Positions 4,245-22,864 of a stretch of DNA of 64,000 bases are shown here, in pieces. The DNA comes from Catalinimonas alkaloidigena (GTDB taxonomy: Bacteria; Bacteroidota; Bacteroidia; Cytophagales; Cyclobacteriaceae): positions 2,113,001 through 2,177,000 of the forward strand of contig NZ_JAQFIL010000001.1 of NCBI RefSeq assembly GCF_029504655.1, given 5' to 3'. The notes under the pieces are model-generated. The model was given only the letters and a program-made list of their open reading frames with translations, searched no databases and was not told the DNA's origin. Position 1 is the stretch's first letter, and each line of letters opens with the position of its first letter. The position numbers and the translations under genes were made by a program.

Positions 4245-4248
4245 TCTT

Positions 4249-5697
4249 TTAAGATTCGGTTTCAAGCTCCCTTTCTGTTGTAAAGCCTCCGGCCAAAGCT
4301 CTGTAAAGCGCGATACGGTATTCCAGCAGCAAAGAGTTGGCGGTGATGAGGTCTCTGCGTAGCTGTTGTTCCTGGTTCAAAGCAGTAAGGACAGCCAGGT
4401 AATCACTTAATCCATTAAAATATTCAATTTCAAGTTGTTGGTAAGCGCGTGTGGCAAGTTCAACCTGTACCTTCAAAACTTCAATACTTTCAAGTTGTTT
4501 CCTCTCCTGTATCAAAGCGTCCTCTACTTCCTGAAAAGCCACCAGAACGGTTTGTCCGTATTCGTAGAGCCGTTGGTTCTTGACGGCCTGTGTTCTATCT
4601 ACTTCAGCATTTAGTCTGCCTCCATAAAAAAGCGGAGCTACCAGATTTCCTCCCAGTGAATAGGCCCAGTCTTCCAGGAGATTATCAAAATTATTGGCCC
4701 TTAACTGTGCAGATGTTGATATGCTTAATCGGGGATATCGATTGCTGATCGCGGAGGCTACTTCCCGGTCTGATGCCTGTAACAGCTTAAACGCGCTTTG
4801 TACATCAGGACGCCTTGCCAGTAGTTCTGAGGGTATACCTGTATCGGGGAGCGGAGGTAAATCTGGTAGGCTGTCAGGTACATATTCAATTTCGTTTTGG
4901 GCAGGCATACCCAGTAAAACAGCCAACTGATGCTCCAGCACTTCTATCCTGGATTCTGTCTGGATTTTCTGTTCCCGGCTCGCTTCAACCAGCTGCTGCT
5001 GACGTAAGATGTCCACACTTCTGATCTGTCCGCTACCAAACTGTGCTTTGATAAAATCCAGTATTTTTTGATTGGTATTGATCTGTTCATCAATAAGTTC
5101 CAGTTGCTGCCATTCCGCCATGAGCTGATACCAGGTACTGGTGATTTCTGCGGAGAGTGAAATAGACGCTGCCTGATAATCGGCGAATGTAGCCTCGGCT
5201 CTGAATTTTTCCGCCTTAATTAAAGCGCTGATCCTTCCCCAGAGATCTACTTCGTAAAAGGCGGAAAGTCCTAACTGCACATTTTCACCACCCACGAAGT
5301 CTGGCTGAGGACGGTTCAGGCTGCTGCGGATTGACGCTTCAACATCGGGTAGCAGGAATGACGACTGTCGGTCCACCACCGCCTGCGCCTCTTTAAAACG
5401 AAACCAAACAGCTGTCAGATTCATGTTGGTGCCTATGGCCTGTTCTACCAGTGTATTGAGCCGCTGATCATTAAAGCTGGTCCACCATGCATCAGTTGGG
5501 ACTTCTTTTCCGGTATAGGTAAAAGGTTGGGGTGTTTCTACTGGAAGTTTGGCCTGGGTCGTTTTAGGTGAACAGGCAGAAAAAAAAACTATACTCACTA
5601 AAAACATAAAAAATAATAATAAACCTGAAGTGTCAGTACGTAAAAAATGACATACTACTTTGTCAAGCTTCAGCTGTGTACTAGGTTCTATTTTCAT
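4249..5697 (-). CDS. Outer-membrane efflux lipoprotein (TolC/NodT family)
   Basis: Outer-membrane channel of the tripartite efflux system, 482 residues. The hydrophobic stretch ends in a lipobox (FFSAC, Cys 42), so it is probably lipidated as in NodT/OprM-type factors. It has two OEP repeats with long helices, typical motifs such as ARRPDVQSAFKLLQASDREV near the middle, and FYEVDLWGRISAL in the first repeat. The signal segment is preceded by about 25 polar residues, which is long; an internal Met 31 would leave almost no n-region, so the upstream ATG is kept. First gene of the minus-strand operon, four bases before the adaptor ATG. Confidence 0.9.
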   Translation of the reverse strand: MKIEPSTQLKLDKVVCHFLRTDTSGLLLFFMFLVSIVFFSACSPKTTQAKLPVETPQPFTYTGKEVPTDAWWTSFNDQRLNTLVEQAIGTNMNLTAVWFRFKEAQAVVDRQSSFLLPDVEASIRSSLNRPQPDFVGGENVQLGLSAFYEVDLWGRISALIKAEKFRAEATFADYQAASISLSAEITSTWYQLMAEWQQLELIDEQINTNQKILDFIKAQFGSGQIRSVDILRQQQLVEASREQKIQTESRIEVLEHQLAVLLGMPAQNEIEYVPDSLPDLPPLPDTGIPSELLARRPDVQSAFKLLQASDREVASAISNRYPRLSISTSAQLRANNFDNLLEDWAYSLGGNLVAPLFYGGRLNAEVDRTQAVKNQRLYEYGQTVLVAFQEVEDALIQERKQLESIEVLKVQVELATRAYQQLEIEYFNGLSDYLAVLTALNQEQQLRRDLITANSLLLEYRIALYRALAGGFTTERELETES

Positions 5698-6133: not shown

Positions 6134-7633
6134 TTGCAGGAACCAAACTTAGAAATAAAGCAGGTATCAAAGACATTTCCTGGAGTGAGAGCTTTGGATA
6201 AAGTAAGCCTGAATATCATGAAGGGAGAAGTCCATGCCCTGTGCGGTGAGAATGGTGCCGGGAAAAGTACCTTGATGAATATTTTGTCAGGAAATCTCAA
6301 GCCTGATAGTGGTCAAATTTTGGTATCGGGTAAGGAGGTACAAATCTCAAATCAGCTGGATGCACAGGAACTGGGTATAGCCATCGTGTATCAGGAAAGA
6401 AGCCTGGTGGACTCAATCAGTGTTGCTGAAAACATATTTACGAATAATAAGCCCAGGAATCGTTATGGACTGATCAGTTACCGTAAGCTATACCAGCAAA
6501 CCCAGGCGTTGTTAAGCAGCCTTAATTTATCCGACATCAGACCGGAAATGCAGGTAGGTCATTTGTCTGCTGCTATGCAGCAGATGGTTGAAATTGCCAA
6601 AGCTCTTTCACAAAACCCTTCCATACTTATCCTGGATGAGCCTACAGCCTCTATTACAGAAAATGAAACTACCATTCTATTTAAAATCATTCGCAAGCTG
6701 AGGGCGCAGGGAGTTTCGGTGATTTATATTTCGCACCGCATGGCAGAGATTTTTGAGGTTGCCGATCGGGTAAGTGTGCTTAAGGATGGAAAATACCAGG
6801 GTACAAGGCTTGTAAGTGAAACCTACATAGATGAAATCATTCGCATGATGGTGGGGCGAAAGCTGGAAAAGCAGGAGTTCCTCTCGGATGCCAAGCAGGA
6901 TATTGTTTTAGAGGTGAACAGGCTGAGCAGCGCTCGCTTCAGAAATATCAGTTTCCATTTGAAGAAAGGGGAAATCCTTGCCCTCTCGGGATTAGTGGGT
7001 GCCGGAAGAACTGAAGTAGCCCGTACAATCATGGGCGCTGACCCTCTCATCGCTGGAGAAATAGTACTAGAGGGCAAAAAAGTAAAAATAGATCACCCAA
7101 AAACAGCTACAAAACTGGGTATAGGTTACCTGCCGGAAGAAAGAAAGTCCAACGGCCTGTTTCTGGACATGAGCGTAGAGGACAACATTATTTCCGCTTA
7201 CTTACCTTTTGCTGCTGAAAAAGGATTCATCCAAGAGGCAAAAGTGAAAAGGACGGCTGAGGATTACATCAAAAAGCTTCGCATCATCACCCCCTCTACG
7301 CATCAGAAAGTAATGAACCTAAGTGGCGGAAATCAGCAGAAGATCGTGCTGGCCAAATGGCTTTTGCGTCAGCCCAAAGTGTTTATGGTAGATGAGCCTA
7401 CACACGGTGTGGACGTGGGTGCCAAAGCGGAGATTTATGCTATCCTCAAAGAACTTACTCGTCAGGGAGTAGCCATACTCTTAATCTCTTCGGAATTATC
7501 TGAAGTACTGGCGATCAGTGATCGCATCCTGGTGATGTGGAATGGTCAGCTTACTGCTGAGCTAAGCCGTGAAGAAGCCACCGAAGAAGAGATTATGCAT
7601 TATGCCTCAGGAACTAAAACGATGTTTGTCTGA
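6134..7633 (+). CDS. Sugar ABC transporter ATP-binding protein (RbsA/MglA-like, two NBDs)
   Basis: Tandem-NBD ATPase of a carbohydrate ABC importer, 499 residues, the usual RbsA/MglA length. NBD1 has Walker A GENGAGKST, a weak signature LSAAMQQ and Walker B LILDEPTAS. NBD2 has the family's degenerate Walker A (GLVGAGRTE), signature LSGGNQQ and Walker B MVDEPTHGVDVG. The start appears to be TTG: an in-frame stop lies at 6128, and the first conserved residues follow at once. The permease ATG follows after three bases. Its place at the head of an apiose-type catabolic operon suggests the importer carries D-apiose or a related branched pentose; this is inferred from context. Confidence 0.9.
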   Translation: MQEPNLEIKQVSKTFPGVRALDKVSLNIMKGEVHALCGENGAGKSTLMNILSGNLKPDSGQILVSGKEVQISNQLDAQELGIAIVYQERSLVDSISVAENIFTNNKPRNRYGLISYRKLYQQTQALLSSLNLSDIRPEMQVGHLSAAMQQMVEIAKALSQNPSILILDEPTASITENETTILFKIIRKLRAQGVSVIYISHRMAEIFEVADRVSVLKDGKYQGTRLVSETYIDEIIRMMVGRKLEKQEFLSDAKQDIVLEVNRLSSARFRNISFHLKKGEILALSGLVGAGRTEVARTIMGADPLIAGEIVLEGKKVKIDHPKTATKLGIGYLPEERKSNGLFLDMSVEDNIISAYLPFAAEKGFIQEAKVKRTAEDYIKKLRIITPSTHQKVMNLSGGNQQKIVLAKWLLRQPKVFMVDEPTHGVDVGAKAEIYAILKELTRQGVAILLISSELSEVLAISDRILVMWNGQLTAELSREEATEEEIMHYASGTKTMFV

Positions 7634-7636
7634 TCT

Positions 7637-8650
7637 ATGAACAGAGATAAAATAACCCGACTGCTACAGGACAGAGTGTTTACCCTCTCAGTGACCATCG
7701 CCATATTATTCATTGTGTGCAGTATCATCTGGCCTGCTACCTTTCCCACCTTTGACAATATCTCACTAGTGCTGCTCAATCTTTCCATAGAATCAATTGT
7801 GGCGGTGGGAATGATGCTGTTGCTCATTTCCGGTATGTTTGACCTTTCAGTAGGCTCAGTCGTAGCATTTGCCGGAAGCATAGCCGCCTATTTAATGTAT
7901 TGGTACGGCATGTATGTATCCGTAGCGATTCTGGTCGGCTTAGGTTTGGCCGGTCTGATAGGGCTGATCAATGGTTTTTTTGTAGCCAAAGTCGGGATTA
8001 ACCCGCTGATACAGACATTGGCCATGATGGGTATCGTGCGGGGTTTGGCACTTATGGTGGCTGGTGCAGGAATCCAGAATCTACCTGAAGCATTCAACGC
8101 CATAGGGCAATCCAAACTCCTGGGTTTGCAAACACCTGTATGGTTTATGATAATCGTAGTTGCCATATTTAGTCTGCTGGTATCTCGCACAGTCTTTTTC
8201 CGGCAATATTATTATATCGGAGGCAATGAAAAAGCCGCCCGCCTTTCCGGTATCAGAGTAGAGAGGGTTAAGATCATTGGTTTTGTACTGATCTCCTTAC
8301 TGGCTGGTTTGGCGGGTATTCTCCTGGCCTCACGCCTGGGGGCGGCATTGGCTACTTCGGGTAGAGGCATGGAATTACGCGTCATTACGGCTGTCATTCT
8401 GGGAGGGGCGAGTTTGTTGGGTGGCCAGGGTAAGATCATCGGAGCCTTATTGGGTACCATCTTTATGGGGTTAGTGAGTAACATCATGATATTGGCAAGG
8501 GTATCGGGTTATTGGCAGGAAATTGTATTGGGCCTTATCCTGATCCTGGCAGTAGCGGTAGATGTGCTGGCTCAGCGAAGAGCAGGCACTACCCCTCGTG
8601 AATATGTGAAAAGGGCCTCTGAAGTTACACCTCCAAAAGTAGAAGCATGA
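7637..8650 (+). CDS. Sugar ABC transporter permease (RbsC-like, BPD_transp_2)
   Basis: Integral membrane component of the sugar importer, 337 residues. Many hydrophobic helices span nearly the whole length. The RbsC-family region is visible: GMFDLSVGSVVAFAG after the second helix, GLINGFFVAKVGINPLIQTL in the middle, and ILGGASLLGGQGKIIGALLG near the C-terminus. It begins three bases after the ATPase stop. Its own stop overlaps the next ATG (ATGA at 8647-8650), indicating translational coupling to the first binding protein. Only one permease gene is present, so it would act as a homodimer with the double-NBD ATPase. Confidence 0.92.
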   Translation: MNRDKITRLLQDRVFTLSVTIAILFIVCSIIWPATFPTFDNISLVLLNLSIESIVAVGMMLLLISGMFDLSVGSVVAFAGSIAAYLMYWYGMYVSVAILVGLGLAGLIGLINGFFVAKVGINPLIQTLAMMGIVRGLALMVAGAGIQNLPEAFNAIGQSKLLGLQTPVWFMIIVVAIFSLLVSRTVFFRQYYYIGGNEKAARLSGIRVERVKIIGFVLISLLAGLAGILLASRLGAALATSGRGMELRVITAVILGGASLLGGQGKIIGALLGTIFMGLVSNIMILARVSGYWQEIVLGLILILAVAVDVLAQRRAGTTPREYVKRASEVTPPKVEA

Positions 8651-9666
8651 AAATAATACTAAGGTCAATACTCCTGCTGTTTGTTATCCTGTCGGCCTGC
8701 GATCCTAAAAAGGGGGCGCTTTATAAGCAACGTCAGCTGGAAAAGCAACAAACACCGGCAGTGGAGATCAACGAGGATGAAGAGTATGTAATGGTTACTA
8801 CCATCGTCAATTTTCCGATGTATGTAAACCATGACCAGGCTGCTTTCCAGAGGTGGGGCAGAGCAAGAGGCGTAAAAACATCCATACTTGGCCCTTCCGA
8901 ATGGGACGTGCAGGCGCAAATTGCTACCATAGAGCAGGTGATTGGTACAAGGCCAACTGGCTTGCTCATCAATGGCACAGACCCTGCCATTGCCGGTGCG
9001 ATCAATAAGGCTGTGGAAGCCGGAATTCCTACTGTGGTGTACGATTCAGATATCCCCAACAGTGAGCGGCACGCCTTTCTGGGTACCGACTGGTATCAGA
9101 TCGGTAAACTACAGGGAGAGGCCATGGTAGAACTGATAGGGGGAAAAGGGAAGGTCGCTTATATGGGTATACTGGGGATGACCAATATGGAAGCAGGCTT
9201 TCAGGGACTGCTGGATGTCCTGAAAAATTATCCTGAAATTGAAGTGGTAGGCAAATACGATGATGGTTCTGATGTTGAAGAGGCCGCACGTATCACTTCA
9301 GACCTGCTCAGCGCACATCCCGATCTGGCGGGAATCTGTGGTTTTGACGCCATGAGCGGTCCCGGTATCGGCTTATCCATAAAGGAAGCAGGGAAGGCAG
9401 GTAAGGTAAAAGTGACCACTGTGGACTGGGAACCTGAGCACATTAAGCTGGTGCAGGAGGGCGTAATAGACGTTCTGATTGGACAGAAGCGGGAGTTATT
9501 CACCTGGTACGGCGCACAGTTTCTTTTTGACATGGTGCACGATACCAATCCGCTTTCCAGCAATGATGACAAAGCAGGAATCACCAATATTCCTTATTCC
9601 GTAAATACCGGACTACTCAAAATCACCCAGGATAATATTCACCTTTTCATGGAAGATCATAGTTGA
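8647..9666 (+). CDS. Sugar-binding lipoprotein of ABC importer, copy 1
   Basis: Periplasmic binding protein of the Peripla_BP_4 (ribose/galactose type) family, 339 residues. The lipobox LSAC puts the acylated Cys at residue 18. After a charged linker the first domain starts at about residue 45 (EEYVMVTTIVNFPMYVNHD). The sugar-binding motif region LLINGTDPAIAGAI and the hinge/second-lobe segment GICGFDAMSGPGIGLSIKEAG are present. ATG overlaps the permease stop by four bases. The next gene is a close paralogue. Context points to D-apiose or a related branched sugar as ligand; the ligand cannot be read from sequence. Confidence 0.9.
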   Translation: MKIILRSILLLFVILSACDPKKGALYKQRQLEKQQTPAVEINEDEEYVMVTTIVNFPMYVNHDQAAFQRWGRARGVKTSILGPSEWDVQAQIATIEQVIGTRPTGLLINGTDPAIAGAINKAVEAGIPTVVYDSDIPNSERHAFLGTDWYQIGKLQGEAMVELIGGKGKVAYMGILGMTNMEAGFQGLLDVLKNYPEIEVVGKYDDGSDVEEAARITSDLLSAHPDLAGICGFDAMSGPGIGLSIKEAGKAGKVKVTTVDWEPEHIKLVQEGVIDVLIGQKRELFTWYGAQFLFDMVHDTNPLSSNDDKAGITNIPYSVNTGLLKITQDNIHLFMEDHS

Positions 9667-9673
9667 GCTTAAA

Positions 9674-10732
9674 ATGAACAGATGTCTAGCTTACATATCG
9701 CTTTTGCTGCTGTGCTGGAATTGTAATCCGGAAAATGAAGGGCACAACAAGCAAAAGCAGGGGCCTCAGCAGTCAGGGGAAAATTACGCTGACGAAGAGT
9801 ATGTGATGGTGACCACCATCGTTAATTTTCCGATGTACGTAAATCACGATCAGCATGCGTTTACCCGTTGGGGGCAGCACAGAGGGGTCAGGACTTCTAT
9901 TCTAGGTCCTTCCGAATGGGATATTCAGGCGCAGATTGCGACTATTGAACAGGTAATCGGCACCCGGCCTACGGGTTTACTGATCAATGGCACTGATCCT
10001 GCCATCGCCGGCGCTATTGACAGGGCAGTTGAGGCAGGCATACCTACGGTTGTCTATGATTCAGATGTGCCGCAGAGCAAAAGGCATAGCTTTTTGGGCA
10101 CCAACTGGTATGATATGGGCACACTGATGGGAGAGGAGATCGTCAGCCTGACAGGCGGCAAAGGGAAAATCGTGTATCTGGGCATATTCGGGCTTACCAA
10201 TATGGAAGATGGTTACCGTGGGCTAATGGATGTAATCAGTGACTACCCGGACATCAAACTTGTGGGCCGCTACGATGATAAGGCGAATACGGAGATAGCC
10301 GCAAAACTTGCTTCAGATATTCTGGCGGCCCATCCTGACCTGTCAGCTTTTTGCGCATTTACCCCAATGAGCGGATTTGGCTGTGCCCAGACAGTAAAAG
10401 AGGCGGGGAGGGTAGGAGAAGTGAAAGTTACAACCGTAAACTATGAGCCGGAACTTCTGAAATTACTGGAAGAAGGGGTGATCCAGCAGTTGGTCTGCCA
10501 GAAGCGGGAGTTATTCACCTGGTACGGCGCGCAGTTTCTTTTTGATATGGTGCATGATACCAATCCGCTTTCTGTAAATGATGATGTAGCGGGCATCACC
10601 AACGTCCCTTATGCTGTGAACACGGGTACTTTTGCCCTGACAAAGGAAAACATGAGTGTATTTTTAGAAAAGCCTGCGGCATTCCTAAATTTTCCGGACG
10701 CACTACTTGTATATAATAAAGCCTATGAATAA
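9674..10732 (+). CDS. Sugar-binding lipoprotein of ABC importer, tandem copy 2
   Basis: Second binding protein, 352 residues, starting seven bases after copy 1. Long stretches are identical to copy 1, including VTTIVNFPMYVNHDQ, IATIEQVIGTRPTG and KRELFTWYGAQFLFDM, so it arose by tandem duplication. Divergence is concentrated in the second lobe: copy 1 reads CGFDAMSGPGIG where copy 2 reads CAFTPMSGFGCA, and copy 1 VDWEPEH is VNYEPEL here. These changes fall near the expected ligand cleft, so the two may differ in specificity. The signal peptide is hydrophobic with a Cys at residue 14 or 17, an imperfect lipobox. Its stop overlaps the next ATG by eight bases. Confidence 0.9.
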   Translation: MNRCLAYISLLLLCWNCNPENEGHNKQKQGPQQSGENYADEEYVMVTTIVNFPMYVNHDQHAFTRWGQHRGVRTSILGPSEWDIQAQIATIEQVIGTRPTGLLINGTDPAIAGAIDRAVEAGIPTVVYDSDVPQSKRHSFLGTNWYDMGTLMGEEIVSLTGGKGKIVYLGIFGLTNMEDGYRGLMDVISDYPDIKLVGRYDDKANTEIAAKLASDILAAHPDLSAFCAFTPMSGFGCAQTVKEAGRVGEVKVTTVNYEPELLKLLEEGVIQQLVCQKRELFTWYGAQFLFDMVHDTNPLSVNDDVAGITNVPYAVNTGTFALTKENMSVFLEKPAAFLNFPDALLVYNKAYE

Positions 10733-11762
10733 GACCAAAAGATTTGCCGTAATCGGCTGTGGATTTTGGGCGCAATACCAGATTGCTGCCTGGAAAGAAC
10801 TTCCTGAAGCTGAACTGATAGCCGTTTGCGATCAGGATTGCAGGAAAGCAATACAGACCGCCGAGAAGTTTGGCGCAAAAAGGTATTATACTGATGCCCG
10901 GCAACTGTTTGAAAACGAATACCTGGACTATGTAGATATCATTACCAATGTGGAAACACATGCTGAGTTCGTAAAAATGGCCGCTGAATTTGGGGTGGCC
11001 GCGATTTGCCAGAAACCCCTGGCTCCGGACTTAGAAACTGCCAAAGCGATGGTGCAGGCCTGTAATAAAGCGGAGGTGCCCTTATTTGTCCATGAGAATT
11101 TCCGCTGGCAGGCTCCCATTCGTAAGGTCAAAGAGATCATGCAAAGTGGAAAGGTAGGTGAGGTGTTTAAAGGAAAAGTGGCTTTTGTTTCGGCCTTCCC
11201 AGTCTTTGATAATCAGCCCTTTTTGGCTGAAATTGATAAGTTTATCATTGCTGACATTGGCTCCCACGTGCTGGATATCGCAAGATACCTGATGGGGGAA
11301 GTAGATAATTTGCGCTGCCTGACCAGAAGAGTAAATCCGAAAATCAAAGGAGAAGATGTAGCGACCCTGCTCATGGAAATGAGAAGTGGAGCTCATTGTT
11401 TGGTGGAAATGTCTTACGCTTCTATTTTGGAGAAGGAAGCTTTCCCGCAAACCCTCATTCTGCTTGAAGGAAGTAAAGGTTCTATCAGGCTTGAACATGA
11501 TTATGTGATCAAGGTATCCTCAGAAAAAGAAGTGGAGATGATCAGAGTAGCGCCTCCGGTATATGATTGGGTCAATCTGGATTACAATCTGGTGCAATCC
11601 TGTATGGTGGAGCTCAATGGTGATTTTCTGAAGGCCTTTCAGGAAGGCAGGCTAGCTGAAATCACGGGAACGGATAACTACCGGACGATGCAGTTGGTCT
11701 ATGCCGGATATGAGTCGGCAAAAAGTGGAAAGGTGGTAAAAATAAACGAGCCGGAATTTTAA
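10725..11762 (+). CDS. apsD: Gfo/Idh/MocA-family dehydrogenase, likely D-apiose dehydrogenase
   Basis: NAD(P)-dependent sugar dehydrogenase, 345 residues. The N-terminal Rossmann fold has FAVIGCGFWAQYQ. The catalytic-lysine motif of the family appears as CQKPLAPDLETAK (QKP in place of the usual EKP). The C-terminal domain carries DIGSHVLDIARYLMGE, the Asp/His substrate-binding pattern. Reading could begin at a TTG at 10707, but the ATG at 10725 overlaps the upstream stop by eight bases and removes a non-homologous leader. In the published oxidative apiose pathway, ApsD oxidises D-apiose to the lactone. All following enzymes of that route lie downstream, which is the main support for this name; the family alone is too broad. 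Confidence 0.78.
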   Translation: MNKTKRFAVIGCGFWAQYQIAAWKELPEAELIAVCDQDCRKAIQTAEKFGAKRYYTDARQLFENEYLDYVDIITNVETHAEFVKMAAEFGVAAICQKPLAPDLETAKAMVQACNKAEVPLFVHENFRWQAPIRKVKEIMQSGKVGEVFKGKVAFVSAFPVFDNQPFLAEIDKFIIADIGSHVLDIARYLMGEVDNLRCLTRRVNPKIKGEDVATLLMEMRSGAHCLVEMSYASILEKEAFPQTLILLEGSKGSIRLEHDYVIKVSSEKEVEMIRVAPPVYDWVNLDYNLVQSCMVELNGDFLKAFQEGRLAEITGTDNYRTMQLVYAGYESAKSGKVVKINEPEF

Positions 11763-11840
11763 AATGTGTTTCAGCGAAGGTGCTAAGCCTTCACAAATCA
11801 CGACTGAACTTAATCGCTCACTCCAAATCAATAATACGCA

Positions 11841-13100
11841 ATGCCTACAGCAAGATCATTAAAAGCCAGGTACCTGATAGAAACCGCCCATCCCCTAGAA
11901 AAAGCTGCTGAGATGATGGCAGGAGAGCAGTCTTCAGGCACCTTTGTTAAGACGCCAGGCGAAACAGAAATGCTTAAGGAGAAACATGCTGCCACCATTG
12001 AAGGCATAGAGGTATTAGAAGAGTTAGAAGAACCCGCTCTGCCCGGCAGCAGGCCCCCGCGAGGACTATTATCGCCAGTGTATCGCAGAGCCCATGTAGA
12101 CCTGGCCTGGCCACTGGATAATGTAGGGGTTAATTTGTCCAACCTGATGGCTACAGTGGCAGGTAATCTGTTTGAACTATCCCCTTTTTCCGCACTTAAA
12201 TTATTAGACATTACCGTTCCTGAAGCCTATAAAGAAAAATACCCAGGACCAAAATTTGGTGTCTCAGGGACGAGAAAGCTGTGTGGTGTGGAGAAGCGAC
12301 CGATCATCGGCACCATTATTAAACCCAGCGTAGGCCTCAGTCCGGCAGAAACAGCTCAGCAGGTAAAGGTTTTGATAGAGGCAGGACTGGATTTTATCAA
12401 AGATGATGAGCTGATGGGGGACTCACCTCACTCACCCTTTACCAAAAGAGTAGATGCTGTAATGGAGGTTATCAATCAATACACTGAGCTTAGAGGGAAG
12501 AAACCAATGTTCGCCTTCAACCTCAGTGGAGATATAGATGATATGCTTCGTCGCCATGACTATGTGCTTGAAAAAGGGGGGACATGTGTAATGGCCAGCC
12601 TCAATTGGGTGGGTATCAGTGGAATGCATAAATTGTGTCAGCATACCCAGCTACCTATTCATGGGCATCGCAATGGTTGGGGTTTGTTTTACCGTTCAGA
12701 AGACATAGGCATAAGCTTTAAGGTTTTTCATAAAATCTTCAGTATGGCAGGTGTAGACCATATCCATACCAATGGCATCCGGAATAAATTCTGCGAGTCA
12801 GACGCATCGGTGCTTACTTCCATTCGCGCTTGTCTTGATCCCAAGGGAGGGGGCTACCCGGTGATGCCGGTGGTATCTTCCGGGCAGTGGGCAGAGCAGG
12901 CTTATGATACATATCGGCAGATACAGAGCACAGAGCTGATGTACCTCTGTGGCGGAGGAATTACCGCACATCCCGGCGGTATGGCTGCCGGAGTGAAAAG
13001 CATACAGTTGGCCTGGGAAGGTGCTACCCAGGGGAAAACCATTTATGACATGCAGGACCAAAAGGAGATTCAAGAGGCAATAGCGTTTTACGGAGAGTAA
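11841..13100 (+). CDS. oiaX/oiaT: RuBisCO-like protein (form IV), 3-oxo-isoapionate-4-phosphate-cleaving type
   Basis: RuBisCO large-subunit-like enzyme, 419 residues, shorter than form I. Active-site elements align by eye: E29/T34 (EQSSGTF), N109 (AGN), K161 (IIKPSVGLS, spinach K175), and the metal motif K187-D188-D189-E190 (FIKDDE), so Mg and a carbamylatable Lys are retained. H276-R277 (HGHRNG) and the phosphate-site GGG at 371-373 are also kept. Spinach K177 is replaced by Ser 163, loop 6 reads NGIRNKF rather than the GKLEG type, and SGG becomes SGQ, so CO2 fixation is not expected. Neighbouring kinase, oxidoisomerase and lactonase genes point to OiaX (decarboxylase) or OiaT (transcarboxylase/hydrolase). 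Kinase start follows after two bases. Confidence 0.85.
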   Translation: MPTARSLKARYLIETAHPLEKAAEMMAGEQSSGTFVKTPGETEMLKEKHAATIEGIEVLEELEEPALPGSRPPRGLLSPVYRRAHVDLAWPLDNVGVNLSNLMATVAGNLFELSPFSALKLLDITVPEAYKEKYPGPKFGVSGTRKLCGVEKRPIIGTIIKPSVGLSPAETAQQVKVLIEAGLDFIKDDELMGDSPHSPFTKRVDAVMEVINQYTELRGKKPMFAFNLSGDIDDMLRRHDYVLEKGGTCVMASLNWVGISGMHKLCQHTQLPIHGHRNGWGLFYRSEDIGISFKVFHKIFSMAGVDHIHTNGIRNKFCESDASVLTSIRACLDPKGGGYPVMPVVSSGQWAEQAYDTYRQIQSTELMYLCGGGITAHPGGMAAGVKSIQLAWEGATQGKTIYDMQDQKEIQEAIAFYGE

Positions 13101-13102
13101 TC

Positions 13103-14518
13103 ATGACTAAAGCAGCACTTCAAAAAGGAGAGATTTTTTTAAGTTATTACGGTGATGACTTTACCGGCTCTACTGATGTAATGGAGTCTTTGGCATTAAA
13201 TGGCATACCTACTGCACTATTTCTAAAAGCACCGAGTCAGGAAGAAGTAGCGTCTTTTCGGTTAAAGAATCAGATTAGCGGGTCAGCAGAGCGCCTGCAA
13301 GCGTTTGGTGTGGCGGGAATCAGTCGCAGCCTTACTCCCCTAGAGATGGATCATGAATTGCCTGGCATTTTTGAGCATATAAGTAAAGTCCCATCGCGCT
13401 TTTTTCATTACAAAACCTGTTCTACTTTTGACTCATCCCCCGGCATTGGCAATATAGGCCATGCCATTGACATTGCCTTTCGGTACTTTCCCTCGGGCAT
13501 CATACCTCTCTTGATTGGTGCACCATCCCTCAACCGCTTTTGTATATTCGGAAACCTTTTTGCCAGGGTAGATGGGGTTACCTATCGCCTGGACCGTCAT
13601 CCTACCATGTCACGCCATCCGGTAACACCCATGGATGAGAGTGATATCCGCCGGCACTTAGCCAAGCAGACCAAACGTAAAATCCATCATATTGACCTGC
13701 TGGCGCTTGAAAAGAGTGAGCATCTCCAAATAGACTTCATAAAAAAACTGTCCATCGAAGAAGGCGAGTATTTATTATTTGATACGTATACCGAAAAGCA
13801 TTTGAGAAATGTAGGAAAGCTAATCAATCGTTTCAGCCTTGAGCAGCGTCAATTGTTGGTGGGATCTTCAGGGATTGAGTATGCACTATGCCACTATCTT
13901 CAGGAAAACGGACAATTGGAATTACCTCCCTCGCCCAAATCACCCGCTAAAGTACAGGAGCTGATCGTAGTGGGAGGAAGCTGCTCACCACCTACCAAAA
14001 TACAAGTGGAATGGGCCATAGCTCAAGGCTTTGCTGATATCCGTCTAAATACTGTGAAGCTGGTCAATCCGGAGCAGGCGGAATCCGAGATAAATAGGGC
14101 AAAGCAGTTGATGTTTGAGGCGCTGGAAAGAAAACAAAGCTTAGCACTCTATACTGCCTTAGGTCCTGACGACCCTTCAATAGATGCGACAAATAAAGAA
14201 ATGAGCAGGCTACAGAGAAAAGGGATTCCCAGTAGTGCGGTGCTGGCGGGAACACAGGGAAGGTTGCTCCGAGAGGTAATGGAAAAAACTGGTAAAAGAA
14301 GAGTGGTGGTAGCGGGTGGTGATACCTCCGGTTATGTTTCCAGAGCATTAGGGATTTACGCTTTGGAAACGCTTATGCCCATAGCTCCGGGGGCTCCATT
14401 GTGTACCGCTCATTCACACCATCCAGACTTTGATGGACTTGAAATCTGTCTCAAAGGGGGGCAAAACGGTAAGCAGAACTTCTTCGGATCAATTTTACAT
14501 GGAAAAGGTATCAGTTAA
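13103..14518 (+). CDS. oiaK: DUF1537-family four-carbon acid sugar kinase, likely 3-oxo-isoapionate kinase
   Basis: ATP-dependent acid-sugar kinase of the DUF1537 family, 471 residues. The N-terminal substrate domain has YYGDDFTGSTD at about residues 15-25. Mid-protein motifs HYKTCSTFDSSPGIGNIG and GAPSLNRFCIFGN are typical. The C-terminal nucleotide-binding domain has VVVAGGDTSGYVSRALG and PGAPLC. In the apiose pathway OiaK phosphorylates 3-oxo-isoapionate at the 4-position, making the substrate for the RLP. The ATG is two bases after the RLP stop, so the kinase and its consumer enzyme are probably co-translated. Other DUF1537 members act on threonate, erythronate or related acids, so the name depends on the neighbours. 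Confidence 0.85.
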   Translation: MTKAALQKGEIFLSYYGDDFTGSTDVMESLALNGIPTALFLKAPSQEEVASFRLKNQISGSAERLQAFGVAGISRSLTPLEMDHELPGIFEHISKVPSRFFHYKTCSTFDSSPGIGNIGHAIDIAFRYFPSGIIPLLIGAPSLNRFCIFGNLFARVDGVTYRLDRHPTMSRHPVTPMDESDIRRHLAKQTKRKIHHIDLLALEKSEHLQIDFIKKLSIEEGEYLLFDTYTEKHLRNVGKLINRFSLEQRQLLVGSSGIEYALCHYLQENGQLELPPSPKSPAKVQELIVVGGSCSPPTKIQVEWAIAQGFADIRLNTVKLVNPEQAESEINRAKQLMFEALERKQSLALYTALGPDDPSIDATNKEMSRLQRKGIPSSAVLAGTQGRLLREVMEKTGKRRVVVAGGDTSGYVSRALGIYALETLMPIAPGAPLCTAHSHHPDFDGLEICLKGGQNGKQNFFGSILHGKGIS

Positions 14519-14545
14519 AATATTACTCAATCAAAATTTATTAAC

Positions 14546-15376
14546 ATGAAAAAAGTAGCACTTATTGGCGCAGGAGGAAAAATGGGTTGGAGAACTACCG
14601 CTAATTTGCGGGATAACCCTGAATATGAAATGTTTTACCTGGAAGTGAGCCAGCAGGGCATTGACCGCCTGAAAGAAATCGGTATTCAGGTTTCAATACC
14701 TTCAGAAGTACTTCCCGAAGTAGATGTTGTGATACTGGCAGTACCCGATGTGGCGATCAAGAAAATTGCTGCCGACGTAGTGCCACAGCTAAAATCAGAC
14801 GCTATGCTGGTTACGCTGGATCCGGCCGCTCCCTGTGCGGGCCATCTGCCGGAAAGAGAGGATGTAACCTATTTTGCTGCTCACCCATCCCATCCATCTG
14901 TATTCAACTGGGAGCCTAGTGAAAAGTCTCACTATGACTACTTTGGTGGCATAGCCGCTAAGCAGAGTATTGTATGCGCACTTATACAGGGGCCGGAAGA
15001 TCAGTATGCAGTAGGTGAAAAATTATCCAGAGATATGTACAGGCCAGTGGTAAGGGCCCATCGGGTAACCATTGAACAGATGGGTATATTGGAGCCCGCC
15101 TTATCAGAGACTTTTGCCGCCGCAGTAATCACGGTGATGAAAGAAGCCGTAGACACTGTAGTTGAAAAAGGTGTGCCCAAGGAAGCTGCCTACGATTTTT
15201 TCCTGGGACATATTAATATTGAGTTAGCACTGCTGTTTGGTCAGTTGCCGGGTGGGCAGTTTTCTGATGCTGCCATGAAAGCCATTGAGCTGGGAAAGCC
15301 ATTGCTATTTAAGGAAAATTGGAAAGATGTATTTGAGTGGGATAATGTGATGAAGCAGATAAAAGCAATCACGTAA
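14546..15376 (+). CDS. apnO: D-apionate oxidoisomerase-like protein
   Basis: Dinucleotide-binding enzyme, 276 residues. The N-terminus has a Rossmann motif ALIGAGGKMGWRTT. Segments TYFAAHPSHPSVFNWEP and AHRVTIEQMGILEPALSET are characteristic of the phosphogluconate-dehydrogenase-C-terminal-like proteins found next to DUF1537 kinases and RLPs. In the published pathway ApnO oxidises D-apionate while migrating the hydroxymethyl group, giving 3-oxo-isoapionate. It lies 27 bases after the kinase and 44 before the lactonase start. Automatic annotation often calls such genes semialdehyde dehydrogenase. Assignment rests on fold plus the complete neighbourhood. Confidence 0.8.
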   Translation: MKKVALIGAGGKMGWRTTANLRDNPEYEMFYLEVSQQGIDRLKEIGIQVSIPSEVLPEVDVVILAVPDVAIKKIAADVVPQLKSDAMLVTLDPAAPCAGHLPEREDVTYFAAHPSHPSVFNWEPSEKSHYDYFGGIAAKQSIVCALIQGPEDQYAVGEKLSRDMYRPVVRAHRVTIEQMGILEPALSETFAAAVITVMKEAVDTVVEKGVPKEAAYDFFLGHINIELALLFGQLPGGQFSDAAMKAIELGKPLLFKENWKDVFEWDNVMKQIKAIT

Positions 15377-15420
15377 ATCAATGTGTTTCATAATGATTTT
15401 CTGGGCCTAACTTTTTGAGC

Positions 15421-17358
15421 ATGTCAAATCTGAATTTTTCCAAAGAACAGAAATATTACGGAGGGAAAGAGCACCGTCCTCCTAAAATTATCCGGTTGAA
15501 AGCGGGACCCGTAAGCTGTCAGTATGAAAGTGGATATTTACGATATCTGAACGCAGGAGGAACAGAGCTACTGAGGATGATATATCCGGCGGTGAGGGAT
15601 CATAATTGGGGTACAATCGCTCCCCAAATCAGTGATGAAAAGATTGTCGTTAATGAAGATCATTTTGAAATCAGCTACGATTGTCTTTACGAGGGTGGAG
15701 AGGTAGCATTTCAGGCTAAATACAGCATTAAAGGTTCAGCAGATGGAGAAGTAAGTTTTCAGATGGATGGGAGTTGTCTTCAGCCTTTCCGCAAAAACCG
15801 GATTGGCTTCAACCTGCTGCATCCGCCCGAAGCAGCCGGAGCTAAGGTGATTATCGGCCATACCAATGGAGAAGAAGATGAAGGAACATTTCCGCTACAT
15901 ATCAGCCCGCATCAGCCTTTTATGGATATACGGTTTATTCGCTGGCTGCAAAGTGGCTTATGGGCGAAAGTGAATTTTGAGGGGGATATTTTTGAGATGG
16001 AAGACCAGCGCAACTGGACCGATGCTTCGTTTAAAACCTACTCTACACCCTTGGCCATACCTTTTCCGGTGCGCTTAGAGAAAGGAGACAAAATAATTCA
16101 GTCCGTTAAGCTTAGCCTTGAAAGCACTGACTTTAGTAAGCATAACAGCCATGATAAGTCTGTATCCCTGAGCCTGGAAAATGAAAGGTATCCACTTCCT
16201 CAAATAGGTATCGGACAGTCATCAGAAATTAAAGCACTGACAGATAAAGACATTGCTTATTTCAATGAACTTAACTTGTCACATTACAGAGTAGACCTGC
16301 ATTTGAGTCAGGCTGATCTGGAGAAAAACTGGCTGCGTGCGCTGAACGAATCCCGGCAGTTAAATTTACCATTAGCGCTGGCTTTGTATTTCAAAAAAAA
16401 TACAGTGAGAGAATTGGGTGAGCTCAAGGATTTCACGGAAGACCATAAACCCGCAGTTAAACAGCTACTGGTATTTTCAGAAGATCATAAGTCCTCCCCC
16501 TCATCTATGCTAGAACAGGTTCTGCCTGACCTGAGGGACATGTTTCCGGAAGCACAAATAGGGGCAGGGACAGACTGTTTTTTCACCGAGCTGAATCGGG
16601 AAAGAGTCAATCCTGAAGGGCTTGACTTCTTAACTTACTCCATCAATCCACAGGTGCATCAGTTTGACAACCAATCCCTGGTTGAAACGCTGCAGGCACA
16701 AAGCTATACCGTGGAAAGCGCGCGCCAGTTTGCTGGTGGATTACCGATACATATTTCTCCCATAAGCCTGAAAATGCGTTTTAACCCCAATGCAACCGGC
16801 CCGGAGCCGGAATCACCAGAAGGAGAACTTCCTCTCCAGGCAGACAACCGTCAGATGTCACTATTTGCTGCGGGCTGGACTATCGGAAGTATCAAGTACC
16901 TCACAGAAAGCCGGGTATCAGCAGTAACTTATTATGAAACGCTTGGCAGAAGAGGAGTGATGCAAGGTGATCATCATGCCCTGCTACCTGAGAAATTTGC
17001 TGCTGTAAAAGGGATGGTCTTCCCAATATATTGGGTGTTCTACAAACTCTTAAAGGAAAAAGGAATCCAGATCATAAAAACACAAAGTAGTCATCCTCAT
17101 CAGGTGGATGGATTAGCCTGGGAGGTCGGGAATGAGCAGTATATTCTCTTGGCAAATTATCAGGCTTTCGTGATCAGTGTGTCAATTGATAATTGGCCTG
17201 ATCATTTTGAGCAAAAGGTATTAGATGAAGAAAATTTTGAAAAGATGGCGCTTCACTTTGATGATTTCATTTCCGGCGCATGGGCAGAATCAAAGCAGTT
17301 ACTTAAGTTACGTCCCTATAGTATATTTCTTTTAAGAATTAATAGAAATGGTGGCTAG
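15421..17358 (+). CDS. apnL: D-apionate lactonase-like protein
   Basis: Soluble protein of 645 residues with no signal peptide. The first roughly 240 residues are beta-rich. A central region of about residues 260-560 looks like a TIM barrel, with alternating strands and helices such as LSHYRVDLHLSQADLEKNW, LPLALALYFKK and LDFLTYSINPQVHQFD; conserved-looking segments are AVTYYETLGRRGVMQGDHH and LAGGLPIHISP-like loops. A small C-terminal beta domain ends in PYSIFLLRI. The architecture fits ApnL, which opens apionolactone to apionate. The ATG at 15421 is preferred over a TTG at 15415. I recognise it mainly by its place in the pathway; a glycoside-hydrolase-like role cannot be excluded. Confidence 0.7.
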   Translation: MSNLNFSKEQKYYGGKEHRPPKIIRLKAGPVSCQYESGYLRYLNAGGTELLRMIYPAVRDHNWGTIAPQISDEKIVVNEDHFEISYDCLYEGGEVAFQAKYSIKGSADGEVSFQMDGSCLQPFRKNRIGFNLLHPPEAAGAKVIIGHTNGEEDEGTFPLHISPHQPFMDIRFIRWLQSGLWAKVNFEGDIFEMEDQRNWTDASFKTYSTPLAIPFPVRLEKGDKIIQSVKLSLESTDFSKHNSHDKSVSLSLENERYPLPQIGIGQSSEIKALTDKDIAYFNELNLSHYRVDLHLSQADLEKNWLRALNESRQLNLPLALALYFKKNTVRELGELKDFTEDHKPAVKQLLVFSEDHKSSPSSMLEQVLPDLRDMFPEAQIGAGTDCFFTELNRERVNPEGLDFLTYSINPQVHQFDNQSLVETLQAQSYTVESARQFAGGLPIHISPISLKMRFNPNATGPEPESPEGELPLQADNRQMSLFAAGWTIGSIKYLTESRVSAVTYYETLGRRGVMQGDHHALLPEKFAAVKGMVFPIYWVFYKLLKEKGIQIIKTQSSHPHQVDGLAWEVGNEQYILLANYQAFVISVSIDNWPDHFEQKVLDEENFEKMALHFDDFISGAWAESKQLLKLRPYSIFLLRINRNGG

Positions 17359-17580: not shown

Positions 17581-18300
17581 ATGCAAAACCTGGAAAATAA
17601 AACAGCACTGATTACCGGAGGAAGTAAAGGAATTGGCTATGGTATCGCAGCTGCCTTGATGGACAAAGGTATGAAAGTAGCCATCACCAGCCGATCACAA
17701 TCGAAAGCTGATGAAGCCGCATCTGCGCTAAACAAAGCCGGTAAAGGAGAAGCTATGGGTATCGCTGCCGATGTGCGTGACCTAGCGTCGCAGCAAAAGG
17801 CGGTAGACCAACTTTTACAAAAATGGGAAAAACTGGATCTGCTGGTGGCTAATGCCGGCTTAGGTCATTTTGCCTCTATTGAGGAGATGACGGCCGAGCA
17901 GTGGAATGAAACCATAGATACTAATCTCACCGGGGTATTCTATACCATCAAGGCAGGTTTAGATGCGTTGAAGTCGTCAAAAGGATATTTTATTACGATT
18001 TCAAGCCTGGCAGGAACCAATTTTTTTCCCAACGGCTCAGCCTATAATGCCAGTAAGTTTGGGCTAACCGGCTTTACCCAATCCGTAATGCTTGACTTAC
18101 GACAACATGGCATCAAGGTAACGACCATCATGCCGGGTTCAGTGGCGACTTATTTTAACAACCATCAACCCAATGAGCAGGATGCCTGGAAAATTCAGAG
18201 TGAAGATTTGGGGCAAATGGTTGTTGACTTGATGGAGATGCACCCCCGCACGCTGCCCAGTAAAGTAGAGGTACGCCCTACACAGCCGCCTAAGAAGTAA
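17581..18300 (+). CDS. SDR-family oxidoreductase
   Basis: Classical short-chain dehydrogenase, 239 residues. Seen are the cofactor motif TGGSKGIGYG near the N-terminus, the NAG motif (VANAGLGH), the catalytic Ser region (ITISSLAG), and YNASKFG (YxxxK). Arg in TSRS after the second strand suggests NADP preference. It lies 222 bases after the lactonase gene and is followed by terminators, so it may be a separate transcription unit. It could reduce a pathway intermediate, but similar SDRs annotated as 3-oxoacyl-ACP reductase are common in Cytophagales without any link to apiose. Substrate unknown. Confidence 0.85.
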   Translation: MQNLENKTALITGGSKGIGYGIAAALMDKGMKVAITSRSQSKADEAASALNKAGKGEAMGIAADVRDLASQQKAVDQLLQKWEKLDLLVANAGLGHFASIEEMTAEQWNETIDTNLTGVFYTIKAGLDALKSSKGYFITISSLAGTNFFPNGSAYNASKFGLTGFTQSVMLDLRQHGIKVTTIMPGSVATYFNNHQPNEQDAWKIQSEDLGQMVVDLMEMHPRTLPSKVEVRPTQPPKK

Positions 18301-18320: not shown

Positions 18321-18358
18321 AGGGAAAGTGTGTTGACAATCATGCTTTCCCTTTTTTT
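18321..18358 (+). terminator. Rho-independent terminator after the SDR gene
   Basis: AGGGAAAG at 18321-18328 pairs with CTTTCCCT at 18345-18352. The stem extends inward by four pairs, two of them G-T wobbles. A run of seven T follows immediately. It lies 20 bases after the SDR stop and is oriented for plus-strand transcripts. Confidence 0.8.
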
Positions 18359-18490: not shown

Positions 18491-21400
18491 TTACGCCCGA
18501 TGCTCTGGGGTTTGGTTGGAAGCCTGCAATTCCTGAAGCTTTTTCTTGCCATAGGCCAGGCGGGTGATGGCTACGTAGAGCACTGGTACTGCAAAGATAG
18601 CTAAAAAAGTAGCTGCCAGCATCCCACCAATCACCGTCCATCCGATGGTTTGGCGAGCTACCGCACCAGCGCCACTGGCAAGAACCAGCGGAACCACCCC
18701 TAAAATAAATGCCATAGATGTCATGATAATGGGGCGAAGTCTCAACTTGACAGCCTCCAGGGTTGCCGCAATCAGCTCCATACCTGCCTCAACTCTTTCT
18801 TTAGCGAATTCCACGATCAGAATGGCATTTTTAGCCGCCAAGCCAATCAACGTGATCATCCCTATCTGTGCGTAGACGTTGTTATCCAGTTTAGGCAAAA
18901 ATGTAAGCGCCAGTATTGCTCCGAAAAGGCCTAAGGGTATGGCGAAGAGTATAGAAAAAGGGACAGACCAGCTTTCGTATAATGCTGCCAGAAGTAATAG
19001 TACCAATACAATGGATATTCCGAAAATGATGATGGTACTGTTACCGGCTTTCTTTTCCTCTCTGCTGAGCCCGGAGAAATCGTAGCCAAAACCTGCCGGA
19101 AGCACTTCAGCAGCTACCTCTTCTAAAGCCTGTAGTGCCTGTCCACTGCTATAACCGGGAGCTGCACTTCCATTGATATCGGTAGAGCGGAAAAGATTGT
19201 AGTGGTTGATTACGGGTGCGTTCTCCACGATCTCATATTTGACCAGCGCGCTCAAAGGAATTGCTTTTCCCTGATGGTTCATCACATAAAACTGCTCCAT
19301 ATCACGGATGTCATTTCTGTATGAAGTATCAGCCTGAGCCACTACCCTGAAGTTACGTCCGTAGCGGGTGAAGTCATTGATATACTGGCTACCCATATAA
19401 GATGACATGGTATTAAAAACCTCACCCAGACCTACCCCTAACTTTTTGGCTTTTTCACGGTCTACCTCTACATGATAGCCGGGGGTTTGGGAGGTAAAGA
19501 AACTGTAGGCCATCGCTATTTCCGGCCGTTGGTTGGCAGCAGCTAAAAACTGGTCAAGCACCTGCCCGAATTCATCAATATCTCCCTCTTTTCGCTGTTC
19601 CAGAACAAAGCTAAAACCACCTGACTGTCCGAGCCCGGGGATCGCGGGAGGAGATACTACTACAATATCAGCTTCTTCTATGGAAGCAAACTTTTGCCTG
19701 AGCCTGCTCATGACCCCCTGTAGTTGTTCTGAGGGCTCAGTCCGTTCACTCCAGGGCTTCATCTGGGTAAAGAAGGTCGCACTGTTAGGCTTGAAAGAGA
19801 AATTAATACCATTCAGTCCGCCGATGGCGTTGTAATGCTCTATGGCTGGCATCTCATCTATGATCTTGGCCACCTCTTCCATGACCTCATTGGTACGTGT
19901 GGATGACGCACCTTCGGGAAGCTCTAGTGAGATAAATACCCTTCCTTCATCTTCGGTAGGAATAAAGCCGGTGGGCTTGGTCTGAAATAAGCTAAAAGCA
20001 CCTACATAAATGCAGATCAGTATGATTAATACCAGTGGAGTAGCCTTGATACTTTTTTGTACGCCCACCGAATATCTTTCCGTGGTTTTATTAAACCAGC
20101 GGTTGAAGCGAAGGAAGAATTTAGCCAGACCTTTCGCCTCTTTTTCCGGTTTTGAAGGCTTAAGGATAAGCGTACAAAGAGCAGGAGTGAGGGTGAGTGC
20201 CACAAATGCGGAGATCAATACTGAAATGGCTATGGTGATGGCGAATTGCTGATACAGTCTGCCCACGATACCGGGGATAAAACCCACCGGAATAAAAACC
20301 GCTGCCAATATTAAAGCAATCGCGATAACCGGAGCGGTGATCTCCTTCATTGCCTTACGCGTGGCTTCCATAGGGGAAAGCTTTTCCTCATCAATGTTAT
20401 GCTGTACAGCTTCCACCACTACTATAGCGTCATCTACCACGATACCTATCGCCAGCACAAAGCCAAAAAGCGTAAGGGTATTGATGGTAAAATCCAGTGG
20501 GATAAAAAAGATGAATGTCCCGATAATGGAAACAGGAATGGCAAGTATAGGAATCAAGGTAGCTCTCCAGCTTTGGAGGAACAGAAATACGACCAGGATT
20601 ACCAGTACCAAAGCTTCCAAAAGTGTATTTACCACCTCTTCAATGGAGGTCTCTACCACAGTAGCAGTTTCCATGGAGACCACTGAATTTACGTCGGCAG
20701 GAAAGCCGGCCTCTAACTCATCTAAGGCCTGATACACGCCTTCCGCTGTTTCCAGCGCATTACTTCCCGGGGCCTGGTAGATCAGTAAGATGGAAGCGGG
20801 ATTACCATCCACTATGGTTGTCCTTCCGTAGTCAAATCTGCCGAAGTCAATGCGGGCAACATCTTTCAGGTAAACAATTGAGCCATCAGAGGGGGAGGTA
20901 CGGACGATGATATTTTCAAACTCTTCCTGGGTAGACAGTCGTCCGTTCACCGTAATGGGGTATTCAAATGACTGGGTGGCGAACTGTGGCATGGCGCCGA
21001 CCGTTCCGGCTGCAACCTGCACATTTTGTTCCTGTATGGCAGCATTAACCTCTCTTGCGCTGATGTTATATTGTGCCAGTTTATCTGGCTTAAGCCAAAG
21101 GCGCATGCTGAAGTCCTGACCAATAGCGGTGATATCGCCTACACCGGGAACACGTAAAAGCGCGTCCCTGACGAAGATATTGGTATAATTATCCAGAAAT
21201 TTGATGTCGTGCGTCCCTTTGGGGGAGTAGATGCCTACGATCATCATGATGCTGGGATTTCTTTTTCGTACTGTCAAACCTAGCCTTCTCACTGCTTCCG
21301 GCAGGCGGGGTTCAGCAATACTCACCCGGTTTTGAACATCCATGGTAGCGATGTCCACATCTGTACCAACCTCAAAGGTCACGTTCATCTGCATCTGACC

Positions 21401-21658: not shown

Positions 21659-21692
21659 ATTATGCTAATCAGAAAAAGTCTTAGTCAAAAAA

Positions 21693-22856: not shown

Positions 22857-22864
22857 CTTAAAAA

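Follow-up and report, generated by a model that had tools for sequence, protein, structure and literature searches.

Which sugar does a nine-gene cluster of Catalinimonas alkaloidigena (Bacteroidota; Cytophagales) serve, and how does its pathway end? The cluster lies in a 64,000-nucleotide stretch of contig NZ_JAQFIL010000001.1 (positions 2,113,001 to 2,177,000; here called the window), part of a 7.9-Mb genome, and a preliminary description had read it as a complete set of genes for the import and oxidative catabolism of D-apiose. Searches with open reading frames (ORFs) and family profiles found the nine plus-strand genes of the named families in the order claimed, spanning positions 6134 to 17358 (Table 1). 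Protein families, homology, gene order, co-conservation in relatives, and the clade and residues of the RuBisCO-like protein (RLP) were observed directly, and they suggest that the cluster is probably an operon through which a Catalinimonas-type bacterium uses D-apiose oxidatively, with an RLP-catalyzed ending of the OiaT type.

In the proposed pathway, apiosidase-family enzymes encoded elsewhere in the genome would release apiose, a branched sugar of plants, and an importer of the ATP-binding cassette (ABC) type, served by two paralogous binding proteins, would carry it over the inner membrane. ApsD would then oxidize D-apiose to its lactone, ApnL would open the lactone to D-apionate, ApnO would oxidize and rearrange D-apionate to 3-oxo-isoapionate, and the DUF1537 kinase would phosphorylate this product. 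An OiaT-type RLP would remove the carboxylate, re-add it to the neighboring carbon in a RuBisCO-like manner, and cleave the intermediate into 3-phosphoglycerate and glycolate. The steps and enzyme names are reportedly those of the oxidative apiose pathway of Carter et al. (2018), and we infer every reaction, as well as the imported ligand, from the published chemistry of homologues.

Table 1. Coordinates of the cluster genes in the window and of the four-gene unit found in other loci
Feature	Position	Strand	Basis
RbsA-type sugar ABC ATPase, TTG start	6134..7633	+	two ABC_tran domains
RbsC-type permease	7637..8650	+	BPD_transp_2
Binding protein SBP1	8647..9666	+	Peripla_BP_4
Binding protein SBP2, paralogue of SBP1	9674..10732	+	Peripla_BP_4
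ApsD-like Gfo/Idh/MocA protein, putative D-apiose dehydrogenase	10725..11762	+	family; best solved relative 5uhw
RuBisCO-like protein (RLP), putative OiaT-type	11841..13100	+	family, model scores, clade, residues
DUF1537 kinase, OiaK-like	13103..14518	+	SBD_N and NBD_C; OiaK model, 437 bits
ApnO-like oxidoisomerase (PGDH_C)	14546..15376	+	49% identity to R. etli ApnO; 5t57
ApnL-like D-apionolactonase	15421 (ATG) or 15415 (TTG)..17358	+	NF049900, 329 bits
Four-gene unit	L003:11992-16683; L062-L067; L082-L087; L196-L202		family and order

Homologues of ApsD, ApnL, ApnO, OiaK, and OiaX/OiaT are encoded together in the window, and the set recurs in relatives. The same enzymes (ApsD, ApnL, ApnO, a DUF1537 kinase, and an RLP) share one locus with a sugar ABC importer on plasmid p42f of Rhizobium etli CFN42 (L008), to whose products the window proteins are 43% (ApsD), 42% (RLP), 41% (kinase), 49% (ApnO), and 30% (ApnL) identical. 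Among solved structures, the dehydrogenase matched 5uhw best (E value, 8e-95; runner-up, 2e-22) and ApnO matched 5t57 (7e-88), while ApnL had no relative among the structures searched. The best curated models were likewise apiose ones, namely OiaX for the RLP (422 bits), OiaK for the kinase, and ApnL for the lactonase, so the earlier assignment to oxidative apiose catabolism holds. Grouping of the kinase with threonate or erythronate enzymes had been named in advance as a result that would speak against apiose; the kinase scored 168 bits on the 3-oxo-tetronate kinase model and 63 bits on the D-threonate kinase model, compared with 437 bits for OiaK, and catabolism of threonate or erythronate was rejected. 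Classical RuBisCO and methionine-salvage RLPs were also rejected as identities of the RLP.

The genes are closely packed in part, as the preliminary description had stated: neighboring genes overlap by 4 and 8 bases or are separated by 3, 7, and 2 bases. Wider gaps that it had passed over separate ApsD from the RLP (78 bases), the kinase from ApnO (27 bases), and ApnO from ApnL (44 bases, counted from the ATG at 15421, the start with which a 645-amino-acid database entry of the same protein agrees). Chance assembly is excluded because the enzyme set recurs in relatives. The window RLP, used as a query, matched 11 of 291 genomes in the order, 34 of 295 in the family, and 125 of 395 in the phylum, its own genome being counted each time; of the 125 phylum matches, all except that genome and seven others at 51 to 53% were at most 37% identical. 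Loci of up to 20 kb were read in 29 genomes, a nonrandom choice made mainly by score among the order and family matches that covers only part of the family-level matching genomes, together with seven further loci picked from the phylum search; some stretches end at contig ends. The RLP, kinase, and ApnO occur together in 15 Cytophagales loci (window included; RLPs at least 57% identical to that of the window), with ApsD in 13 and ApnL in 13 of the 15. A genome of the same genus (G363) has the cluster (L068), and among the matches listed is an RLP from Catalinimonas sp. 4WD22 that shares 85% identity with the window protein. Loci L069-L071 have the importer, ApsD, and RLP only. Five of the 15 full-pathway loci (L060:11794-12612, L061, L075, L078, and L079), the window not among them, also encode a protein of 272 to 277 amino acids, which Pfam calls a xylose isomerase-like TIM barrel in L060 and L078 and which had no NCBIfam match at 1e-10. 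An ApnL-like protein is encoded by Tunicatimonas pelagia (among the matches listed).

Which ending the RLP provides is the choice that the preliminary description had left open. Residues are numbered here as in RuBisCO. Two RLP reactions have been published for the apiose route, decarboxylation by OiaX and transcarboxylation/hydrolysis by OiaT (PMC6302742), and the clade, residues, and scores favor OiaT for the window protein. It is 55 to 56% identical to the RLPs of Microvirga and Rhizobium Q54 versus 42% to R. etli OiaX, and on the OiaX model it scored 422 bits, with 457 and 444 bits for two proteins named OiaT by JGI and 784 bits for R. etli OiaX. In a midpoint-rooted tree of 73 rows, the full-pathway Cytophagales proteins cluster together (99/96) and share one side of a 100/99 branch with four OiaT-named rows; the other side holds six OiaX rows (100/100) and 13 rows from loci with a distinct four-gene unit (see below). 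An alignment with RuBisCO-family relatives indicated that the window RLP retains the equivalents of K175, K201, D203, E204, H294, R295, and K334, as well as those of E60, N123, H327, and S379 (E29, N109, H309, and S346 in the numbering of the window protein), the four positions at which all six OiaX rows have D, G, Q, and G/C, respectively. The other 123 rows (a set that includes L161, the same record as L072, and excludes L196-L202) have E in 123, N in 123, H in 122, and S in 121, the exceptions being a single gap at H327 and, at S379, a gap in one row and A in another. Retention of the carboxylation residues would fit OiaT, because re-adding CO2 should need them and a plain decarboxylation should not. 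Whether these four residues are kept or lost may thus offer a test for transcarboxylating versus decarboxylating RLPs. The genome has a single TIM-family gene, and therefore an OiaX ending would be without a dedicated isomerase, whereas the R. etli locus includes a TIM-type isomerase of the kind that the OiaX product would want. Two RpiB-family genes are also present in the genome.

No member of PF13204, the apiosidase family to which (as PF13204/GH140) BT1012 presumably belongs, was found in the window, which agrees with the earlier statement that no apiose-releasing glycanase is present there as far as this one family, the only one searched for in the window, is concerned. The genome has four PF13204 genes outside the window, which amounts arithmetically to some 0.01 per 20 kb. 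One of them (in L171) is near TonB receptor and SusD-like genes, and two (L004 and L006) are 59% and 58% identical to the pair in the L060 cluster. Of the 15 Cytophagales loci, 6 contain PF13204 genes in the stretch read. L060 (two), L075, L078, L079, and L080 have them interspersed with pathway genes, whereas in L072 the gene precedes ApsD by about 3.4 kb; the hidden Markov model (HMM) used was seeded partly with genes that were later counted, and Pfam independently called those of L060 (two), L075, and L078. In B. thetaiotaomicron, BT1012 is the beta-apiosidase acting on the pectin rhamnogalacturonan II (RG-II) (PMC7939467).

The ATPase of the importer is 38%, its permease 34%, and its binding proteins 28 to 31% identical to the R. 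etli apiose-locus proteins, values that fall short of close homology to an R. etli-type D-apiose ABC binding protein. SBP1, which is 65% identical to SBP2, matched solved structures 3c6q and 2h3h best (1e-42) and R. etli 5ibq, which we take to be a structure with apiose as the ligand, at just 1e-12. Import of apiose is thus presumed, and the term "complete" in the preliminary description applies to the enzymes only provided that the RLP is an OiaT. The window shares with L068, L060, and L061 the placing of RbsA and RbsC beside the enzymes; both genes are also present in L069-L071, where SBP2 is found too; SBP2 is absent from L068. The importer genes lie upstream of the enzymes in L068 and L069-L071 and downstream of ApnL in L060 and L061 (another family). 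In L075, L077, L078, L079, and L081, RbsA and RbsC are replaced by a 338-amino-acid permease (Ureide_permease/Sugar_transport in L075). The ABC genes thus go with the pathway but can be exchanged.

Several observations weigh against the assignment to an apiose pathway with an OiaT ending. The window proteins miss all three curated equivalog cut-offs, 700 bits for OiaX (NF042437), 700 bits for OiaK (NF042436), and 750 bits for ApnL (NF049900), and are homologues in the same roles for which we do not claim equivalog membership. The OiaK cut-off is narrower than the role, since the R. etli OiaK from its own apiose locus (473 bits) and the Microvirga kinase (575 bits) miss it as well; on the ApnL model, R. 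etli and Microvirga reach 1,050 and 899 bits, while the window protein, 30% identical to R. etli ApnL, scores as low as its relatives in L068 (338 bits) and L060 (342 bits). The RLPs of the four-gene Bacteroidota loci keep all four residues and yet fall on the OiaX side of the midpoint-rooted tree. The OiaT name itself is automated, being carried by 7 of the 120 matches listed for an Ancylobacter query, of which most other named ones are called RuBisCO large chain, and the link to OiaT runs through these JGI names rather than through the characterized Xanthobacter protein. The lack of TIM and RpiB genes beside the RLP is weakened as proof of OiaT, since neither was seen in the stretch read of four of six OiaX loci (L177, L179, and L180, annotated; L176, unannotated). 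GlcD (glycolate oxidase) bears on the route because OiaT would yield glycolate, and no protein of the genome exceeded its cut-off of 568, two long fused proteins matching at 140 and 123 bits. Finally, the RLP query found no match in G301, another genome of the genus.

These points leave room for other explanations. The RLP of the same apiose pathway may be an OiaX that decarboxylates its substrate to L-erythrulose 1-phosphate, with housekeeping or unlinked isomerases leading on to erythrose 4-phosphate. OiaX is the only close NCBIfam model for the protein, two RpiB-family genes are present in the genome, linked isomerases are missing from some OiaX loci, and growth on D-apiose is reported for a Rhodobacteraceae strain whose cluster is of the OiaX type (PMC11747546). 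The 42% identity, the score of 422 against a cut-off of 700, the position across the 100/99 branch, the four residues differing from all six OiaX rows, and the single TIM-family gene make such an ending improbable. It is more improbable still, to the point that we give it very little weight, that the enzymes mainly serve a different sugar acid, branched or tetronic: loci without ApsD, ApnO, and ApnL do contain homologues of the RLP and the DUF1537 kinase, and the curated cut-offs are missed, but homologues of all three of these enzymes are present here, the kinase scores far less on the tetronate and threonate models, and 6 of the 15 loci have linked PF13204 genes.

A more serious alternative, although one that we consider unlikely, concerns transport: the catabolic genes could serve apiose while the importer takes another pentose or a broader range of sugars, one binding protein having drifted to a new ligand. 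The distance of the binding proteins from the R. etli apiose-locus protein (28 to 31%), the proximity of SBP1 to other sugar-binding proteins (a search made with SBP1 only), and the 338-amino-acid permease of a different family in 5 of the 15 relatives' loci speak for it; against it, importer and enzymes stay together whether the importer genes come first or follow ApnL.

The family also offers a contrast. In 13 Cytophagales loci whose RLPs are 49 to 52% identical to that of the window, ApsD, ApnO, and ApnL are absent, and all 13 have a fixed unit of RLP, DUF1537 kinase, PF01177 (Asp/Glu racemase-family), and PF01758 symporter genes. The same order in the seven phylum-search loci brings the unit to 20 of the 20 Bacteroidota loci read without ApsD, ApnO, and ApnL; weak Gfo/Idh/MocA matches of 21 to 24% in L067 (Pfam only), L083, L084, and L087 were not counted as ApsD. 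The genome of the window has a single RLP, hence no four-gene unit. Across 135 RLP loci (without L161, whose record is that of L072), 36 contain such a PF01177 gene, and GH127 genes accompany 16 of these 36 versus 1 of the other 99 (L002); ApnO shows the opposite distribution (3 of 36 versus 66 of 99), and ApsD is in none of the 36. Within the Bacteroidota, GH127 is present in 6 of 20 four-gene loci versus 0 of 15 full-pathway loci, and PF13204 is present in 1 of 20 versus 6 of 15. Fisher's exact P values are 0.027 for each of the two Bacteroidota contrasts and 4.5e-10 for the 135 loci, with independence overstated because the loci are related. Six four-gene loci supplied the seed of the PF01177 HMM, and the GH127 HMM was seeded partly with genes later counted, four of the GH127 genes being called independently by Pfam. 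The split is not clean, however: four of the 36 PF01177 loci (L135, L140, L149, and L196) have PF13204 as well.

BT1003, which acts on RG-II as an aceric acid hydrolase, belongs to GH127, a family whose other characterized members are mostly beta-L-arabinofuranosidases (PMC10850190 and PMC5698469). The association of the PF01177 gene with GH127 therefore suggests aceric acid catabolism, and we tentatively propose, at somewhat less than even confidence, that RLP and DUF1537 kinase form a reusable tail for RG-II branched sugar acids, with apiose in the window clade and aceric acid in the four-gene clade. The PF01758 sodium symporter would import aceric acid, the PF01177 protein might isomerize it to a ketose (a guess), the kinase would phosphorylate the ketose form, and the RLP would split the product into 3-phosphoglycerate and lactate, by analogy with the 3-phosphoglycerate and glycolate of OiaT. 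Such a substrate, ketose-aceric acid 1-phosphate, would be the OiaT substrate with CH(OH)CH3 for CH2OH, and by this derivation OiaT chemistry would give lactate. Our searches of open-licence papers turned up no description of such a route; if true, it would show how aceric acid, another rare plant sugar, can be catabolized and that one enzyme pair serves the same pectin in two ways. The Rufibacter unit is near pectinesterase and GH28 genes, and the units of L063 and L200 are near rhamnosidase-like genes. GH127-like genes also lie near RLPs in Sphingomonadales/Erythrobacteraceae, Acidobacteriota, Chloroflexota, and others (L134, L135, L140, L141, L144, L158-L160, L162, and L163), and L002:8166-12519 has one directly upstream of an RLP and kinase, in a neighborhood that includes galactosidase, fucosidase, and sialidase-family genes.

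Other pairings of these two families were seen as well. RLP-kinase pairs without ApnO and ApnL stand beside tripartite ATP-independent periplasmic (TRAP)/ABC transporters and short-chain dehydrogenases/reductases (SDRs) in L023, L026, L027, and L028, with pyruvate kinase in L023 and L027, and probably represent yet another acid-sugar route. On a haloarchaeal plasmid (Halalkalicoccus; L024:8998-12499), an RLP, a DUF1537 kinase, and an ApnO-like protein are encoded with a GntP permease.

Compared with known systems, the cluster is a further and mostly ordinary member of a published pathway, valuable chiefly for how its RLP is assigned and how it differs from the four-gene unit. Beyond the shared genes, the R. 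etli locus has OiaX, TIM, RpiB, DhaKL, and DUF2291 genes that the window cluster lacks; the window differs in an apparently different RLP type, a different importer, and an extra second binding protein. D-apiose degradation I acts on the same sugar and continues with a kinase and then a transketolase, and none of its isomerase-route genes is in the window cluster. This transketolase-type route of Pectobacterium and E. coli begins with D-apiose isomerase or a putative oxidoreductase replacement (PMC13001218). The OiaT-type branch is represented by the Xanthobacter autotrophicus RLP, reported by Carter et al. (2018) and described in PMC6302742; by clade, residues, and score, the window RLP falls on the same side of the family, linked to it through JGI-named proteins and the Ancylobacter and Microvirga relatives. 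For Rhodobacteraceae LCG007, a lactonase, dehydrogenase, oxidoisomerase, and kinase and growth on D-apiose are reported together with a 3-oxo-isoapionate-4-phosphate decarboxylase (OiaX) (PMC11747546), whereas the window, in another phylum, has a likely OiaT-type RLP. Bacteroides and Clostridia are already credited with apiose use (PMC13001218), and our searches of open-licence papers found no description of the oxidative route in this lineage. The Cytophagales set would add an apparently OiaT-ending route whose importer differs and which in several clusters is accompanied by apiosidase-family genes, making cell-wall apiose traceable from glycan to central metabolism.

A promoter scan gave 28 sites versus 23.3 in shuffled sequences, and terminator-like sites were fewer than in shuffles (5 versus 12), with one 12-pair site at 18321-18352. 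The SDR gene downstream (17581-18300) was rejected as an operon member, given a 222-base gap and a Na/H exchanger gene after ApnL instead in L068. On both flanks (3009-5697 and 18491-24211), minus-strand ORFs resemble by eye parts of resistance-nodulation-division (RND) efflux pumps, and ORFs at 25156-51374 resemble by eye two sigma/anti-sigma/SusC/SusD sets, a sulfatase, and two flavin adenine dinucleotide (FAD) oxidoreductases.

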